A stretch of DNA of 33,387 nt from a virus, in IMG/VR virus record IMGVR_UViG_3300042691_011232, positions 1 through 33,387 of that record; one strand, given 5' to 3'. The position numbers and the translations under genes were made by a program. Positions 1,117-29,294 of the stretch are shown piece by piece (positions within the stretch are counted from its first letter, which is position 1; each line of letters begins with the position of its first letter). Under the pieces are notes generated by a model, which searched no databases, was not told where the DNA came from, and worked only from the letters and a program-made list of their open reading frames with translations.

Positions 1117-1271
1117 TAGAAGTAATACAAGAAGTAAGAGGTTCTTACACATATGTTGAAAGTAGTTATTCAAATATTATTAAAGTAGGTAACGAGGTTT
1201 TAAATGCTAACGTTTCAAGTGAAATAACAGCACAAGAAACAATTATTAACGATTATATTGCTTCATTATAA
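1113..1271 (+). CDS. Small protein between tail fibre and tape measure
   Basis: 52 aa (begins MIEVIQEVRGSYTYVESSYS, ends YIASL). The ATG overlaps the upstream TGA as ATGA, and the TAA overlaps the next ATG as TAATG, so it is translationally coupled on both sides. This coupling and the absence of any other gene in the gap make it credible. No family is recognised. Its position suggests a minor tail or fibre-associated protein. Confidence 0.65.
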   Translation: MIEVIQEVRGSYTYVESSYSNIIKVGNEVLNANVSSEITAQETIINDYIASL

Positions 1272-3427
1272 TGGCACAAGAAGAAATAATATTTAAAGTA
1301 GGTGTTGACACTGGAGATAGTGCTAATAAGGTTGCTACAGTTGAGGAACAGTTTGACATACTTAAGAAAACAATTAGCGACACAGAACAAGAAGTTGAAG
1401 AGCTAACCAAGCAATTTGGAAAGAACTCGCAAGAAGTTGAGAGCGCTCGAAAAAAGTTAGGTAACCTTAATGAATCTTTTAATCAGCTTAAAGGAGCAGC
1501 AACAAATGTTAACTCAACCTTTGCAGATGTTTACGGAGAATTACAACCTTTAACAACTCGTCTAGGTGAGGCAGAAGATAGACTTTATGAGCTATCATTA
1601 GCTGGTAAGCAAAACACGAAAGAGTATAAAGATCTACTAGAGACTGTTGCTCGTTACAAGCAAACGCAAATTGAAACTGATAGAATAATAGATCAGGCTG
1701 CATTAACTATGACTCAAAAACTCGGAGCTGCAATACAAGGAGCTGCAAATGGTTTCATGGTTGTGCAAGGTGCGTCTGCTTTATTTGGTAGTGAGTCGAA
1801 AGAACTAGAGAAAGCACTATTGAAAGTACAAGCTGCAATGGCACTTGCTCAAGGTATCGAAGGTGTTAGACAGGCAATCCCATTGTTTAGTAATTTTGCC
1901 AATACTATAAAAACAAAAGTTATAGCATCATTCACTTCCTTAAGAGGAGCTATAATGTCAACAGGTATCGGAGCATTAGTTGTTGCTATAGGTTATTTAA
2001 TCTCAAACTTTGACAAGTTAAAAGGTGCGATGAGTTCGGGGTTGACTGCAGCAAAAAACTTTGAAACTTCTACATCTAATCAAGCAGAAGAGGCACGTAA
2101 AGCATCTGATAATTTTACTGAATACGAGCGTACACTAAAAAGATTAGGTTATACTGAAGATGAGATAAACAACAAAAGAAAAGCACGTTATAAAGATGCA
2201 ATTGAAAAAACACAAAAAGAAATAGCAGCATCAAAGGATGTATATAAAGAACAATTAAAAAACTTAAAGATTGTTGAGAGCTTTGATAAGTGGGGATTCA
2301 ATGCAACAGGTCGATTATTATTTGGTGATGAAGAAGATGCTAAAGCGCAACAACAAAAGATAAAAGATTTAAGTGCTAATTTAACAAAGCTGCGAAATGA
2401 TCAATTTGAATACAATCAAAAGATAAAAGAAGAAAGAAAAAAAGATAACGAGGATGCTGATAAGAAACAAGCTGAGGCAAATGAGAAAGCAAGGGAAAGA
2501 AGAAAACAAAATTTAGAAGATATTCGCCAAAATAAAATACACCAAATTGAATTAGAAAATGCACGTATATTAGAACAGGAAACTTTAGAAAACGCATACT
2601 ACGATAGTTTTAAAACACAACAGCAATTAGAAGAACAAGCGGTCAGAGATAAGTATTTTACTATCATTCAAACCACAAAAGATAATGAGACTTTAAAACT
2701 TGCACAACAAAAAGAATTAGATGCTATTGCTTTAAAATATAAAGAAGAAGCGGACAAACAAGAAAGCGAACGTTTAAACAACATAGGACAACAATACGAA
2801 GACTTTGTAACACAATATACCGAAGCGGTTAATTCAGTATCAGAGAATGAAAAACTAGCGGTTAACGATAAGTATAATTACCTTATTGAGAAAGCAAAAG
2901 AGTATGGTTTTAGCACTGTAGAATTAGAGAAAAAAAGAGCTGCAGAATTAAAAGAAATAGATAAAGAACTATTACAAGCAAAAGAAAAATTTGTAGATGA
3001 AGTTTCTAATATGCTAGGAGCTTTATCTAGTTCAGCAGCTGAGGGAAGTAAAACACAGAAAGCTTTTGCGGTAGCACAATTAGCAATAGATACAGCTAAG
3101 TCTATCGGCTCGGTTATTAGTGGAGCTACCGCAGCCGCAGCCGCAGGAGGGCCAGCTGCACCATTCTTGATTGGTGGATATATTGCTAGTGGAATCGCAA
3201 CGGTTACTAAAGCGATGAGTACAGCGAAAAAGTTATTAAATGCTCCTTTACCAAGTGTACAACCACCTAGTGCTAATAGACCTACGGATAATGCGCAAGG
3301 TACTACTCAACAAGGTACACAACAAACAATACAAGCTCAAAGTACATATAAAGTAGTAGTAGTGGATTCAGATATTACTAAAATGCAAGATAAGACAAAA
3401 AAAGTTAATGCGATAAGTACTATTTAA
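1271..3427 (+). CDS. Tail tape measure protein
   Basis: 718 aa, among the longest genes here. It has coiled-coil-rich stretches (about residues 18-130 and 270-580), a hydrophobic segment at about 232-246 (GALVVAIGYLIS) and an Ala/Gly-rich hydrophobic region at about 605-660 that includes AFAVAQLAIDTAKSIGSV, a pattern common near the C-terminus of tape measures. Such proteins set tail length and pass into the host envelope at DNA ejection. At the usual 0.15 nm per residue the tail would be about 0.1 micrometre, an inference. Unusually, it is followed directly by head genes. Confidence 0.88.
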   Translation: MAQEEIIFKVGVDTGDSANKVATVEEQFDILKKTISDTEQEVEELTKQFGKNSQEVESARKKLGNLNESFNQLKGAATNVNSTFADVYGELQPLTTRLGEAEDRLYELSLAGKQNTKEYKDLLETVARYKQTQIETDRIIDQAALTMTQKLGAAIQGAANGFMVVQGASALFGSESKELEKALLKVQAAMALAQGIEGVRQAIPLFSNFANTIKTKVIASFTSLRGAIMSTGIGALVVAIGYLISNFDKLKGAMSSGLTAAKNFETSTSNQAEEARKASDNFTEYERTLKRLGYTEDEINNKRKARYKDAIEKTQKEIAASKDVYKEQLKNLKIVESFDKWGFNATGRLLFGDEEDAKAQQQKIKDLSANLTKLRNDQFEYNQKIKEERKKDNEDADKKQAEANEKARERRKQNLEDIRQNKIHQIELENARILEQETLENAYYDSFKTQQQLEEQAVRDKYFTIIQTTKDNETLKLAQQKELDAIALKYKEEADKQESERLNNIGQQYEDFVTQYTEAVNSVSENEKLAVNDKYNYLIEKAKEYGFSTVELEKKRAAELKEIDKELLQAKEKFVDEVSNMLGALSSSAAEGSKTQKAFAVAQLAIDTAKSIGSVISGATAAAAAGGPAAPFLIGGYIASGIATVTKAMSTAKKLLNAPLPSVQPPSANRPTDNAQGTTQQGTQQTIQAQSTYKVVVVDSDITKMQDKTKKVNAISTI

Positions 3428-5496: not shown

Positions 5497-6021
5497 ATGT
5501 GCGAATTAAGTGCGGGCTTTAATGCCTTAAATTGTGACTCCGCTGGTGGTATTGCTACCTTATACATTGGATCACTTCGAGATGAAACTACAGGAGCTGC
5601 TAACTATACGTATACACGTACAGCTGGTGAGCTTACTGCTATGGCTAACGTTGGAGCTAAATTGTTTTACACTGTAACTGTTGACGCTGAGATGTCTGAC
5701 TTTACTGTTAATGCAATCGGTTCTAGAGAAAACGCTTCTACTGCTTTTGAAATCACAGGAAACATCAAACTAGCTGGTAATACCGCAGCTATGATTGAGC
5801 AATTAGAAAACCTTTCAAAAGATAGAGTTTGTGTTATTGCTAAACTAAATGATGGTACAAATGAAGTTTTAGGTTTAGATAATGGATGTAAATTCTTATT
5901 CAATCGTACTTCAGGGACTAAGTTTGACGACATGAACGGTGTTACTTTGACTTTCTCTGGGCGTGAAAAGAAAAACGCTCCGAAAGTAAGTGATGTAATC
6001 GTTGCTGCTTTATTAGTGTAA
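5497..6021 (+). CDS. Putative major tail tube protein
   Basis: 174 aa. It is beta-rich, uses the same frequent-codon style as the capsid gene, and is flanked on both sides by terminator hairpins, which fits an abundantly made virion protein. Motifs include a Cys-containing start (MCELSAGFNALNCD), a YTVTVDAEMSDFTVNAIGS segment and a conserved-looking C-terminal VTLTFSGREKKNAPKV. Tail tube is the best guess because an abundant second structural protein next to the capsid is expected and no other tube candidate is visible. A head decoration protein cannot be excluded. Confidence 0.6.
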   Translation: MCELSAGFNALNCDSAGGIATLYIGSLRDETTGAANYTYTRTAGELTAMANVGAKLFYTVTVDAEMSDFTVNAIGSRENASTAFEITGNIKLAGNTAAMIEQLENLSKDRVCVIAKLNDGTNEVLGLDNGCKFLFNRTSGTKFDDMNGVTLTFSGREKKNAPKVSDVIVAALLV

Positions 6022-6083: not shown

Positions 6084-6272
6084 ATGGAATATTTAGAGAA
6101 TTTCAAAGGTCAATCGGTTTGGATTGATAAAATAAAGTGTTTTTTAGTGGCAAATGAAGAAAATAAAGAAATTTTATTTAAACTATTGCCGAATATTTTT
6201 CAAGAAATAACTAACTTTAACGAAGTAAAACCTGTAAAACGTGTTCTTTCTAATCGAAAAAAATCAAAATAA
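6084..6272 (+). CDS. Small hypothetical protein
   Basis: 62 aa, unrecognised. It has an N-terminal SH3-like pattern (FKGQSVWIDKIKCFLVANEE) and a basic C-terminus rich in Arg and Lys. It starts right after the putative tail tube terminator and overlaps the next gene by 32 bases in another frame. By position it may be a tail assembly factor; that is inference only. Confidence 0.6.
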   Translation: MEYLENFKGQSVWIDKIKCFLVANEENKEILFKLLPNIFQEITNFNEVKPVKRVLSNRKKSK

Positions 6273-6612
6273 CTCAATTTGCTTAACTCTAACTGAGAAA
6301 GCGAATGATAATTACCCTGATATTTGGTTGTTCAGATTCGTAAATGAGCAATCTAAGAAAGAATATTACTGCAATCTAACCGATTTATCCACTACAAAGA
6401 AAAGATTTAACCTATTTAATCTATACGAGGGTACAAGTGTTACTTTACCTTTGGGTGATTATACGTATTACGTGTATCAAATGGAGATAGTCGAAGATGA
6501 AAACTATAATCTAGGCATACTTTGTGAACAAGGGAAAGCGAGAGTTAAAACTGATTCTACTGCTATACCTACTTTCACACAAACCACAACAATAAAGAAT
6601 ATTTATGAGTGA
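6241..6612 (+). CDS. Hypothetical structural protein upstream of the portal
   Basis: 123 aa from a GTG start. No in-frame ATG occurs near the start of the conserved-looking part, so GTG is favoured. Beta-strand-rich with a pattern (EK..NNSICLTLTEK, then LFRFVNEQSKKEYYC, then GDYTYYVYQ) common to small proteins next to head genes in Bacteroidetes phages. It overlaps the portal start by 8 bases. A head- or tail-associated role is likely; none is proven. Confidence 0.6.
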   Translation: MFFLIEKNQNNSICLTLTEKANDNYPDIWLFRFVNEQSKKEYYCNLTDLSTTKKRFNLFNLYEGTSVTLPLGDYTYYVYQMEIVEDENYNLGILCEQGKARVKTDSTAIPTFTQTTTIKNIYE

Positions 6613-16877: not shown

Positions 16878-17591
16878 ATGAATATCGGTTGGGTAAAATT
16901 ACACCGACAATTTAAGGATTGGGAGTGGTATAATAAATCTGAAATGGTTCATTTATTTATTCATTGTTTGATTAAAGCCAACTTTAAAGATGGTTCATTC
17001 CAAGGTATTGAATGTAAAAAAGGATCGTTTATAACTTCTTTAAAACACCTATCTGATGAAACTAATATATCAATTCAGACAATTAGAACGTGTTTAAAAA
17101 AGTTACAATTAACAAAAGAAATTTACGTAAAATCAACAAACAAACTAACACAGATAACTATTTGTAATTATGATAGTTACCAACAAGAAAACGAAGACAC
17201 TAACAAACAACTAACAAACAATCAACAAACAACTAACAAACAACTAACAACAATAGAAGAATATAAAGAAAGTAAAGAAGAAAAAAAAAATATTAAAGAC
17301 CGCAAAACAAGTTTTGCTATTTCTTTAGAACCTTATCTAGAATTATACAATAGAGAGATGTTAAACAACTTTTATATGTATTGGACTGAACATGGTGAAA
17401 AGGATAAAAAGATGAGGTTTGAAAAGGAAAAATCTTTTGATGTAAAATTAAGATTATTGAATTGGAGTAAAAGAAGTGAAAGTTTTAAGCAAAAAGAATT
17501 TAAAAAAGAAGTTTTATTTGTAACTCCAGAGGGAATAGAAATTACTGATAAGTTAGTATTACACGTTTATCAACAAACAGGAAAGGTATGA
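16878..17591 (+). CDS. Replication initiation protein (winged-helix, DnaD/lambda O-like)
   Basis: 237 aa. The N-terminal 100 residues follow the pattern of phage replisome organisers: WVKLHRQFKDWEWY, FIHCLIKANF, KKGSFITSLKHLSDETNIS, then a recognition helix IQTIRTCLKKL and a wing ending ITICNYDSYQ. A low-complexity Thr/Asn/Gln/Lys linker (about 108-135) is encoded by 11-bp iteron-like repeats. The C-terminal 90 residues could contact the helicase encoded next, which overlaps by 4 bases. Lambda O has the same layout, with the origin inside the gene. Confidence 0.8.
   Translation: MNIGWVKLHRQFKDWEWYNKSEMVHLFIHCLIKANFKDGSFQGIECKKGSFITSLKHLSDETNISIQTIRTCLKKLQLTKEIYVKSTNKLTQITICNYDSYQQENEDTNKQLTNNQQTTNKQLTTIEEYKESKEEKKNIKDRKTSFAISLEPYLELYNREMLNNFYMYWTEHGEKDKKMRFEKEKSFDVKLRLLNWSKRSESFKQKEFKKEVLFVTPEGIEITDKLVLHVYQQTGKV
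17132..17300 (+). other. Candidate replication origin: 11-bp iterons followed by A-rich tract
   Basis: Five adjacent 11-base units fill 17199-17253: ACTAACAAACA, ACTAACAAACA, ATCAACAAACA, ACTAACAAACA and ACTAACAACAA. A further ATCAACAAACA lies at 17132. An A/G-rich, easily melted tract follows (17254-17300, including a 10-base A run). The 11-base period is one helical turn and is not a multiple of three, so codon repetition does not explain it. The arrangement of iterons in the initiator gene linker followed by an AT-rich tract mirrors the lambda origin. Confidence 0.65.
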
Positions 17592-26450: not shown

Positions 26451-26850
26451 GTACATAGAGACTCCCGAAAAACTTTGGGAACTATTTGAAGAATATGTTT
26501 TACATGAGAAAAAAAACCCTATGTATAAAACAGAATATGTAGGTAAAGATGGAAGGACTGAATTAACACCTTTAGAGACTCCGATAACGTTTGAAGGCTT
26601 TGAATGTTATTTGATGGATAAAGGAATAATAGGAGATTTAGGACACTATTCACAAAATTTAGATGGTAGATATAAAGAATATGTACCCATCATTACACGT
26701 ATAAGAAAAAATTGCTTTGTGCATAACTTTAGAGGGGCTTCTGTTGGTTTGTTTAATGCTAATATCATAGCTAAGAAATTAGGACTATCTGAGAAAGTAG
26801 AAACACAGCAAACGATTATACAAAGGTTTGATTTCGATGTCAACGATTAA
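26437..26850 (+). CDS. terS: Terminase small subunit
   Basis: 137 aa. Pattern of the small-terminase family common in Bacteroidetes phages: YIETPEKLWELFEEYVLH, then TFEGFECYLMDKGI, and C-terminal NANIIAKKLGLSEKVETQQ. It recognises the packaging site and assembles with the large subunit, encoded next with a 14-base overlap. Confidence 0.82.
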   Translation: MGKHKYIETPEKLWELFEEYVLHEKKNPMYKTEYVGKDGRTELTPLETPITFEGFECYLMDKGIIGDLGHYSQNLDGRYKEYVPIITRIRKNCFVHNFRGASVGLFNANIIAKKLGLSEKVETQQTIIQRFDFDVND

Positions 26851-28033
26851 GGGGTATAAACCACACGAAAAACAAAAAGAAATACATAACTCTATAATCA
26901 ATGAGAGTTATAAATATTATATTCTAAACATAGGTAGGCAGTTTGGTAAAACAATGCTAGGTATAAACCAAATGTTATACTGGGCCATCAATCACAAGGG
27001 TTGTAATATTGCATGGGTTACTCCTATCTATAAACAATCAAAGAAAGTATTTGATGAAATGGAGAAGGTCACGAAAACGAGTGGCCTATTCGAGTATAAT
27101 AGATCTGACTTAACGATAACAGGTTTTAATTCTCAGATTCAATTCTTCTCCGGTGAACGACCTGATAACATTCGAGGTAATACGTTCGACTATCTTATAG
27201 TAGATGAGATGGCTTTTACACGTCCAGAATTATGGAGTGAGGTATTAAGTGCAACGGTCCTAGTTAAAGGTAAGAAGGTAATCTTTATTAGTACACCAAA
27301 AGGTAAGAACCATTTTTACCAATTAAGTTTACAACCTAACTACGATAATCGTTATAAGTACTTCCATTATTCTAGTTACGACAACCCTATGATTGATGCG
27401 GAGGACTTAGAAGAAAGGAAAAGGAGTTTACCTAAACACATCTTTGAACAGGAATATTTAGCGAAGTTTATTGATAATGCTAGTGGACTATTTAAGAATG
27501 TCGATAGTTGCGTAATTAAGACCGCTGAACGTACGCAAAAACTATTCGGAGGGTTAGATATAGGTAGAGCAGATGACTACACTGTGTTAACTATTTTAAA
27601 CAAAAACTATCAAATGATATATGTTCAAAGGTGGAGACAACAAGAATGGTCCAAGATTATAGACGAGGTTGCAACTAAGATCCGTGAGTACAATGCTGAG
27701 ATATTTGTCGAAGTGAATAATCAAGGAGACGTGTTCTTTGAAATGTTACAGAATAAAGTATACAACAATATACAGCCTTATGTAACCACTACAGCAACTA
27801 AACCGATAATGATTGAAGATTTAGCGGTACACTTTGAGAATAAAGATATCGGAATACTAAACGAGAATTGGCTAGTAGATGAATTGAACGCATTTACTTA
27901 TATTTACAACGAGAAAACTAGGAGAGTACAATATGGCGCACCACAAGGAGTACATGATGATGGTGTGATGTCGTTAGCACTTGCGGTACAATCAATAAAA
28001 AAGAATCAATATGGCTATTTTGAAGTATATTAA
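26837..28033 (+). CDS. terL: Terminase large subunit
   Basis: 398 aa from ATG; a TTG lies 9 bases earlier. ATPase motifs: Walker A-like NIGRQFGKT (Lys38), Walker B YLIVDE (Asp123, Glu124), and coupling motif STPKG (about 152-156). Nuclease residues: GLDIGRADDYTV (Asp241), EVNNQGD, and HDDGVMSLALAVQ near the C-terminus. It is the packaging motor and cutter. Overlaps the next gene by 23 bases. Confidence 0.95.
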   Translation: MSTIKGYKPHEKQKEIHNSIINESYKYYILNIGRQFGKTMLGINQMLYWAINHKGCNIAWVTPIYKQSKKVFDEMEKVTKTSGLFEYNRSDLTITGFNSQIQFFSGERPDNIRGNTFDYLIVDEMAFTRPELWSEVLSATVLVKGKKVIFISTPKGKNHFYQLSLQPNYDNRYKYFHYSSYDNPMIDAEDLEERKRSLPKHIFEQEYLAKFIDNASGLFKNVDSCVIKTAERTQKLFGGLDIGRADDYTVLTILNKNYQMIYVQRWRQQEWSKIIDEVATKIREYNAEIFVEVNNQGDVFFEMLQNKVYNNIQPYVTTTATKPIMIEDLAVHFENKDIGILNENWLVDELNAFTYIYNEKTRRVQYGAPQGVHDDGVMSLALAVQSIKKNQYGYFEVY

Positions 28034-28616
28034 TATTAAAGCACCGAAAACATTAAACGATTTACGCATAAGACATTTGAAGTCGTTAACAGATGAAAGG
28101 TTTCAAAACGACATGAGTCTAGATACGATCATTGATTTTATACACGCCATAACAGATTCTGATAAGGAAGATTTAAGAAAGGTTAATAAGAATGATTTAT
28201 TAAGCATACACAGACATTGTGTGAGACTTTTTAAGTATTTTAATATCACAGAACCTAAACAAGAAATAACTATCTTAAAACAAACATATGTGCTTGTAGA
28301 TCCTTCTAAGGTTGGGATAGGTTGGCACATTGATATAAGTAACTCAGACCTACAAAATGATCCTAGTAGATTAGCTTCATTAATGTACATTGAGAAAGGT
28401 ACGGTTTATGGTGAACTTGACGAAAATCTAAACATGAAGTATAGCAATCAAGAACGGGCGAAACTCTTTGAAGAACACTTGCCACTACCTGACTATCTTA
28501 ACTTAGTCAGTTTTTTTTTGCGACAATCAATCGTATTAATGAGCAGTTATACGGAAAACAAAAAGACGAGGATAAGCCTACTAAGGGCAACGATAGGTTT
28601 GTTTGGGAAAAACTAA
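28011..28616 (+). CDS. Tail-assembly-chaperone-like protein, short (zero-frame) product
   Basis: 201 aa if read without shifting. Helical and charged N-terminus (LNDLRIRHLKSLTDERFQND), a central section with VDPSKVGIGWHIDISNSDLQ, and an abrupt Ser/Phe/Leu-rich, basic end after nine consecutive Ts. The last 33 residues look unlike a folded domain and probably represent normal termination upstream of a -1 frameshift. Its position just before the neck and tail genes supports a tail-assembly role, in the manner of lambda G, though no strong sequence match is seen. Confidence 0.7.
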   Translation: MAILKYINIKAPKTLNDLRIRHLKSLTDERFQNDMSLDTIIDFIHAITDSDKEDLRKVNKNDLLSIHRHCVRLFKYFNITEPKQEITILKQTYVLVDPSKVGIGWHIDISNSDLQNDPSRLASLMYIEKGTVYGELDENLNMKYSNQERAKLFEEHLPLPDYLNLVSFFLRQSIVLMSSYTENKKTRISLLRATIGLFGKN

Positions 28617-28756
28617 TTCACTATCTAAGTAAAGAATATAATCAAACTTGGGAGCAAATCGTTAAATGGAATATATTTACCTTTAATCATAGGTTAAAAT
28701 TTATTAACTTTACCAAACAAGAAGAAATTAAAACGATTCAACGTGACAGAAGGTGA
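28011..28756 (+). CDS. Predicted -1 frameshift product (G-T-like fusion), 248 aa
   Basis: Reading through the slip T-TTT-TTG and moving back one base gives 169 residues of the short protein plus 79 new ones (FATINRINEQLYGKQKDEDK, then FVWEKLIHYLSKEYNQTWEQ, then IVKWNIFTFNHRLKFINF) ending at TGA. The extension fills the otherwise unexplained 126-base gap before the next gene and overlaps its GTG start by 14 bases. The YNQTWEQIVKW stretch resembles helical T-domain ends of tail chaperones. An assembly error in the T run is the alternative. Confidence 0.7.
28511..28519 (+). promoter_or_regulatory. Slippery T9 site for programmed -1 frameshifting
   Basis: Nine Ts, read TTT TTT TTG in the zero frame, fit the X-XXY-YYZ rule for simultaneous -1 slippage. 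No strong downstream stem or upstream Shine-Dalgarno-like stimulator was identified by eye. Confidence 0.68.
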
Positions 28757-29294
28757 AATAGCAGCAAGTTTAGATTTTGGTAGATCAAAGGATATATTAG
28801 AGAATAAGTCTAAAAATCCTATGACTGATTTATTATTGAAGATCACAAATGAACTTATTGAAGATTGGCGAAAGGAGTTAATTAAAAACGACTCTTATGC
28901 TACTGGTGGTTTAGCTGCATCTTTGAGACCTGTTAACATGAAACCTGAGTCTATAGAAACGGAAGCCGAAAACCATTGGAAGTATATTAACTATGGTGTA
29001 AATGGTACTATGGTTAATAGAGGTGCGCCAACACATGGAAGAGCGCCAAAAGGTAACCTATCATTTTATGAAGCCATAAAGAAGTGGATGTATGACAAAG
29101 GTATTAACCCGCCACAAGGGTATACAGTAGAACAGTACGCTGCAATGGTTAAGACCAGCATACGAAAAAAAGGTATTGAAGGGAATCACTTCTTCGATAA
29201 GGTACTAAACGAAAAAAGAGTTGACGAGATCAGAGAAAGGATTTCCAACCTAGCAGGAGCAGCAATAAAAACGATGATAATAAAACCAAAATAA
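28743..29294 (+). CDS. Neck / tail completion protein (HK97 gp10-like)
   Basis: 183 aa from GTG. The HWKYINYGVNGTMVNRGAPT stretch and the basic ends recall HK97 gp10-like and virion morphogenesis proteins, which join the head to the tail. The start overlaps the frameshift product by 14 bases. It is followed directly by the large tail genes. Confidence 0.6.
   Translation: MTEGEIAASLDFGRSKDILENKSKNPMTDLLLKITNELIEDWRKELIKNDSYATGGLAASLRPVNMKPESIETEAENHWKYINYGVNGTMVNRGAPTHGRAPKGNLSFYEAIKKWMYDKGINPPQGYTVEQYAAMVKTSIRKKGIEGNHFFDKVLNEKRVDEIRERISNLAGAAIKTMIIKPK

Follow-up and report, generated by a model that had tools for sequence, protein, structure and literature searches.

Reading frames at the junction

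In one gene of a 33,387-base IMG/VR virus record, the whole of which is referred to as the window, the zero frame closes soon after a run of nine Ts while the -1 frame stays open. This raises the question of whether two products are made from the gene by slippage on the run, and whether the slip is made by the ribosome or by RNA polymerase.

The zero-frame ORF is located on the plus strand, from an ATG at 28011 to a stop at 28616, and encodes a predicted short, G-like product of 201 aa. The first 166 aa (28011-28508) form a conserved N-terminal domain, seen in alignments, which is common to both predicted products and homologous to the P12024L family described below. The T9 run (28511-28519, plus strand) is read in frame 0 as AGT TTT TTT TTG CGA. 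It contains the heptamers T_TTT_TTT and T_TTT_TTG, and the latter was found in frame at the junction as the preliminary description had it. From the run, the -1 frame reads FATINRINEQLYG...TIQRDRR and gives a T-like extension of 79 aa (28517-28756, plus strand). It ends at a TGA (28754-28756) that overlaps the GTG start (28743) of the next ORF, and no ATG, GTG or TTG codon was found in the extension of the window. The fused product would be 248 aa long, equal to a naturally fused relative (L027). The preliminary description, according to which the zero frame ends after T9 and the -1 frame is open for 79 codons to a stop overlapping the next gene, was correct in all its coordinates, and the two-frame observation at 28011-28756 was confirmed from the sequence. 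A single T9 in the window is not improbable in itself, since 1.3 are expected by chance, and the case therefore rests on conservation.

Two other places in the window were noted. An A10 run (17281-17290) is located inside the ORF 16878-17591; both other frames close within approximately 30 codons, so no second product is evident. A small ORF (6084-6272), following the phrog_19091 gene (5497-6021), overlaps the ORF 6241-6612 in another frame, and the longest run at this overlap is A7.

Conservation of the T run

Relatives were collected by scanning viral contigs with each half of the gene and with alignments. The resulting set, from which the truncated loci L160, L161 and L031 were excluded, comprised 91 distinct sequences with the window counted in, and the N-terminal domain reaches the junction in each of them. 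The junction T run was found at a single codon phase, phase 2, in all 91 loci and was always at least nine long. Nine Ts followed by G were seen in 77 loci, ten Ts followed by C in 13 and ten Ts followed by G in one (L027). In the alignment of homologues, which had been suggested as a check, both frames and the slip run were conserved, and a long extension followed in the -1 frame after T9 or T10 in 90 of the 91 loci. In L027 the extension is in frame and the gene is naturally fused. A run of 7 or 10 Ts giving a simple single frame had been named beforehand as evidence against a shift; runs of 7 were never seen among the relatives, and the in-frame T10 of L027 was the only case in 91. The extension was complete in 86 loci and cut by the contig end in five. 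The +1 frame was shut within 10 codons in 88 of the 91.

The -1 relation was kept in 13 of the 14 loci with T10, all 13 having C as the next base. This T10-C clade shows that it is the frame relation, and not the run length, that is conserved, and a shared sequencing artefact is therefore ruled out. Clustering of the N-terminal domain at 70% identity gave 16 clusters, and the junction reads NNT TTT TTT TT(G/T) in every one of them. Over 87 distinct loci, amounting to 868 kb, the junction had a T run of 8 or more in 87/87, and every one of these runs was 9 or 10 long. Elsewhere on the same strand only 2 T runs of at least 9 were observed, against approximately 35 expected from a first-order Markov model that is blind to codon structure. 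A runs of at least 9 were likewise rare in the same 868 kb (16 observed, 116 expected from this model). An independence estimate for the T-ending codons gave 8.9e-14, which is too generous because the background mixes in codons for other residues. With only T and C endings compared (0.684), the estimate over the 16 clusters was about 1e-8 when the three wobble positions were taken together and about 2e-3 when only the first T was counted, shared ancestry being ignored in both.

A second family in Nonlabens phage P12024L

A match to Nonlabens phage P12024S in a fold search (BFVD, E 1.5e-6) led to a second family. In P12024L, a cultured phage, gp40 is the gene after the terminase and contains a T9 read as CTT TTT TTT TAT. 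The -1 ORF from this run covers gp41, and the two are annotated as separate hypothetical genes. Among 63 gp40-related loci, most of which are 25-35% identical to gp40, T9 was found in 62 and T10 in one, with a -1 extension in all. The N-terminal domains of the two families are remotely homologous (hhalign probability 97.4%, E 9.5e-12), and no homology was found between their extensions (hhalign 5%). P12024L gp40 with its -1 ORF is thus like the window gene in its homologous N-terminal domain, T9, -1 extension and gene order, but unlike it in an extension that cannot be aligned and in the codon phase of the run. Between the families the phase differs by one base, but the length of nine bases is retained in both.

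Level of the proposed slippage

Two mechanisms were considered for the shift. In the first, it would be purely ribosomal: in the same two-product gene, the tRNAs in the P and A sites would slip back together by one base on T_TTT_TTG or T_TTT_TTT, in the manner of E/E+E' of phage P2. An in-frame X_XXY_YYZ heptamer was present in the window and in all 16 cluster representatives. Known tail genes argue for such a shift as well. P2 uses TTTTTTG (T6G) and Smp131 uses T7G (PMC3091744, PMC3931495), both of which resemble the window gene in an all-T slip and a -1 shift in a tail gene, and the tail-chaperone shift of lambda is ribosomal as described in a review (PMC5009743). The remark in the preliminary description that an all-T slip site is unusual did not hold for this reason; what is unusual is the fixed run length of 9. 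P2 and Smp131 have runs of 6-7 Ts, against 9-10 in the window family, and no sequence link to them was found.

It is this length that fits the ribosomal mechanism less well. The heptamer needs 6-7 Ts, and no more than this is kept in the P2 group (PMC3091744, PMC3931495), but the run was never shorter than nine in the 91 and 63 loci, that is, at least 9 in 154/154 loci of both families and in two codon phases. Neither was a conserved 3' structure observed. No downstream RNA structure was found in 15 folded sequences (90 nt, z -1.65 to 1.83), pseudoknots being outside the scope of the folding. The missing structure decides little, because P2 also lacks one (PMC3091744). Nor does -1 slippage fit those junctions of other Bacteroidota phages, described below, at which A8-A9 is followed by a +1 frame. 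On the question of slippage level only, tandem ribosomal slippage is given somewhat less than an even chance. The -1 rule invoked in the preliminary description stands as far as the in-frame heptamer is concerned, but as a mechanism it is one among others for a run of at least nine.

In the second mechanism, RNA polymerase would add one U on the run. Programmed transcriptional slippage is known from Thermus dnaX and IS elements (9A/9T) and from Shigella spa13 (PMC1088944 and PMC5009743). PMC1088944 describes selection against A/T runs that is evident at nine nucleotides in many bacteria, and the use of 9A/9T for expression. Like dnaX and the IS elements, the window gene combines a nine-base run with avoidance of such runs elsewhere and with a predicted second product from a different frame. 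For a run held so strictly at nine or more, transcriptional slippage is at least as good an explanation as the -1 ribosomal rule. Transcriptional slippage is slightly favoured over tandem ribosomal slippage, because at least nine Ts are kept, runs of T9 or longer are avoided elsewhere and no 3' structure was seen in the folded sequences. Coding in two frames may hold some Ts of the run in place, and the length argument is thus suggestive and not decisive. A possible nascent-RNA hairpin abutting T9 was seen in the window (CUGACUA...UAGUCAG, 28489-28510, plus strand, z -2.38), but such an upstream hairpin is not family-wide and was found in 1 of 12 folded sequences. In the literature covered, reviews and surveys among it and mostly outside subscription journals, transcriptional slippage was not found described for a tail chaperone.

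Junctions in other Bacteroidota phages

In 12 deposited Bacteroidota phages, with BS-TP3 and phi14:2 left out, the region following the terminase or preceding the tape measure was surveyed for two-frame junctions. As a raw count, the junction had eight or more successive As or Ts in six of the 12: P12024L (T9), 11b (A9), phi12:1 and phi18:1 (A9), phi10:1 (A8) and P2559S (A8). Of these, phi12:1 and phi18:1 belong to the same genus, and the A8 of P2559S was counted by eye, the automatic count limited to the open region giving A6. No such run was present in the surveyed junctions of 6H, P12002S, phi46:1, RAP44, B40-8 and Porphyromonas 010a.

Flavobacterium phage 11b (L228, 17864-18528) is the clearest surveyed case. 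Its A9 is followed by a -1 extension that reaches 108 aa beyond the stop of the zero frame and has no start codon in the overlap. This extension matches phrog_16333 and also phrog_441 'tail assembly chaperone' (E 1.4e-4). Among the viral contigs, this locus had no relative but itself. The products gp56 of phi12:1 and gp086 of phi10:1 also match phrog_16333 and stand in a +1 relation to the preceding gene. ATG codons were found in the overlap of the downstream frame in phi12:1, phi18:1 and phi10:1, and in these phages the downstream frame may be an ordinary gene. In Croceibacter phage P2559S (L293, 14349-15114), gp20 and the +1 ORF after A8 each match one half of phrog_8914 (1-135 and 138-249 of 250), so a single protein appears to be split. 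Non-directional slippage would more readily accommodate a -1 relation in one of these phages together with +1 in the rest; ordinary overlapping genes are also possible there.

We tentatively propose, at only just below even chances, that the ratio of short to long tail-length chaperone is set in phages of the window's kind by RNA-polymerase slippage on a nine-base homopolymer and not by ribosomal frameshifting, and that other Bacteroidota siphophages (11b, phi12:1/phi18:1, phi10:1 and P2559S) may do likewise on A8-A9.

Selection on the extension and alternatives to a programmed shift

Purifying selection on the -1 extension was evident in the alignments. Between the window and 25 close relatives, substitutions in the extension numbered 181, 47 and 465 at -1 codon positions 1, 2 and 3. 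The residues F1, W30, E31, N52 and H58 of the extension were invariant in 21 sequences and N8 nearly so, and the conserved residues start right at the T run.

This bears on an explanation in which two separate genes are present and the extension is translated alone, by reinitiation or from an undetected start. An ATG, GTG or TTG codon was found within the first 30 extension codons in 14 of the 91 loci (at codon index 4 in 7), and Cellulophaga phi46:1 and Bacteroides BS-TP3 have two ordinary genes at the same syntenic spot; homology of phi46:1 gp16/gp17 and BS-TP3 gp55 to the window family was sought and not found. Against this stand the 77 loci in which the first 30 codons hold no such codon and the conservation that begins at the run with the invariant F1. 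An extension encoded as an independent gene, which had been put forward as a finding against the shift, was absent in both the window family and the P12024L family. Two separate genes are considered very unlikely.

Even less probable is a contingency run, in which replication slippage toggles between the short and the fused form. The single in-frame T10 variant (L027) is what such a run could produce, but mixed lengths would be expected, and the lengths were fixed per clade and nearly always gave the -1 relation. A homopolymer error of sequencing or assembly in an ordinary single-frame gene has a practically negligible chance: homopolymers are error-prone and contig L027 reads straight through its T10, but T9 recurs in 77 of the 91 distinct loci and in 62 of the 63 of the second family, including the deposited P12024L genome, and the T10-C clade keeps the -1 relation.

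The programmed -1 frameshift at T9 with a short and a long product, as first described, is supported at the sequence level. The locus is very probably a two-product, tail-assembly-chaperone-like gene, with a 201-aa short form and a 248-aa long form reached through the T9 slip.

Gene order and protein identity

The gene start is overlapped by the terminase large subunit gene (26828-28033, plus strand; phrog_2 E 2e-47, Pfam Terminase_6N E 4.1e-17). The ORF overlapping the -1 stop (28743-29294, plus strand) had no family match of its own in Pfam or PHROGs and is a putative neck or tail-completion gene by its position, which corresponds to that of gp43 of P12024L; gp43 has a match to phrog_5 'tail completion or Neck1' (E 4.2e-4). 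The tape measure protein (1271-3427, plus strand; phrog_1538 E 2.9e-7) lies downstream of the gene when the window is read across its ends, and gp50 of P12024L matches tape-measure families. Where the region is contiguous in relatives, the slip gene is followed by the neck-like gene, two tail genes of 417 aa and 745 aa, and further on the tape measure, approximately 4-6.5 kb downstream of the slip gene. The terminase adjoins the slip gene in many relatives, is 2.2 kb away in L211 and was unmatched in some loci. The position given in the preliminary description, between terminase and neck-like genes and not beside the tape measure, agrees with this order.

The lambda G/GT arrangement proposed there was retained in part. 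Like lambda G/GT, the window gene has a predicted short and a predicted -1-extended product from one start, and the tape measure is downstream on the same strand. Chaperones of the lambda type bind the tape measure with the short part and the tail tube with the extension, and neither product occurs in virions. The slip site of lambda is GGGAAAG, whereas that of the window is T9, in a gene that follows the terminase and precedes a neck-like gene. The classical position between major tail protein and tape measure was not found, the matches to chaperones are weak and no sequence family link was detectable; we do not assign the gene to the lambda G/GT family.

Neither half of the gene had a usable match in Pfam and PHROGs, with no Pfam match above cut-off. 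The best PHROG chaperone match among alignment members was weak (phrog_1932, E 0.032, in 1 of 21 members). No useful match was found in the PDB by sequence or by fold, and tblastn of both halves against phage genomes found nothing. A search of genome contigs gave no relative, so no prophage was found. An AF2 model of the fused L027 protein (pLDDT 84.3, pTM 0.75) was mostly helical with short strands. With this model, 36 matches at E <= 0.001 were obtained in BFVD, of which almost all are phage proteins without a name. Proteins annotated as tail assembly chaperones were among the weak matches, in Arthrobacter phage Kitkat (E 4.6e-3, TM 0.35/0.32) and Bacillus phage 019DV002 (E 0.011). A tail-chaperone role is the best reading, as suggested by synteny, the short/long architecture and these weak structural matches. 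Three unnamed phage proteins of 243-267 aa (A0A516L5A8, A0A6J7WJY4 and A0A6J5N0W0) align over the entire fused model, so that in some relatives a single frame may suffice for the long form.

Proposed working and implications

We infer that both products are made, as well as their ratio and the chaperone role. Most decoding would give the short, G-like 201-aa protein, and in a fraction of events a slip at T9 would lead into the -1 frame and give the GT-like 248-aa protein with its additional, predicted helical C-terminal domain. The long product would link the tape measure to the tail-tube subunits during tail assembly.

The frameshifts of tail chaperones are textbook examples of ribosomal recoding. 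The phage family described here is large, has neither a name nor a database entry and strictly keeps T9 as its slip site, and it thus provides a natural experiment on whether transcription can set the same output. The finding also accounts for the splitting of genes annotated as 'hypothetical' in deposited genomes of flavobacterial phages, such as gp40/gp41 of P12024L, and suggests as an annotation rule that a T9 be sought in the gene after the terminase. If true, slippage on A8-A9 would account for a downstream frame that is -1 in some Bacteroidota siphophages and +1 in others.
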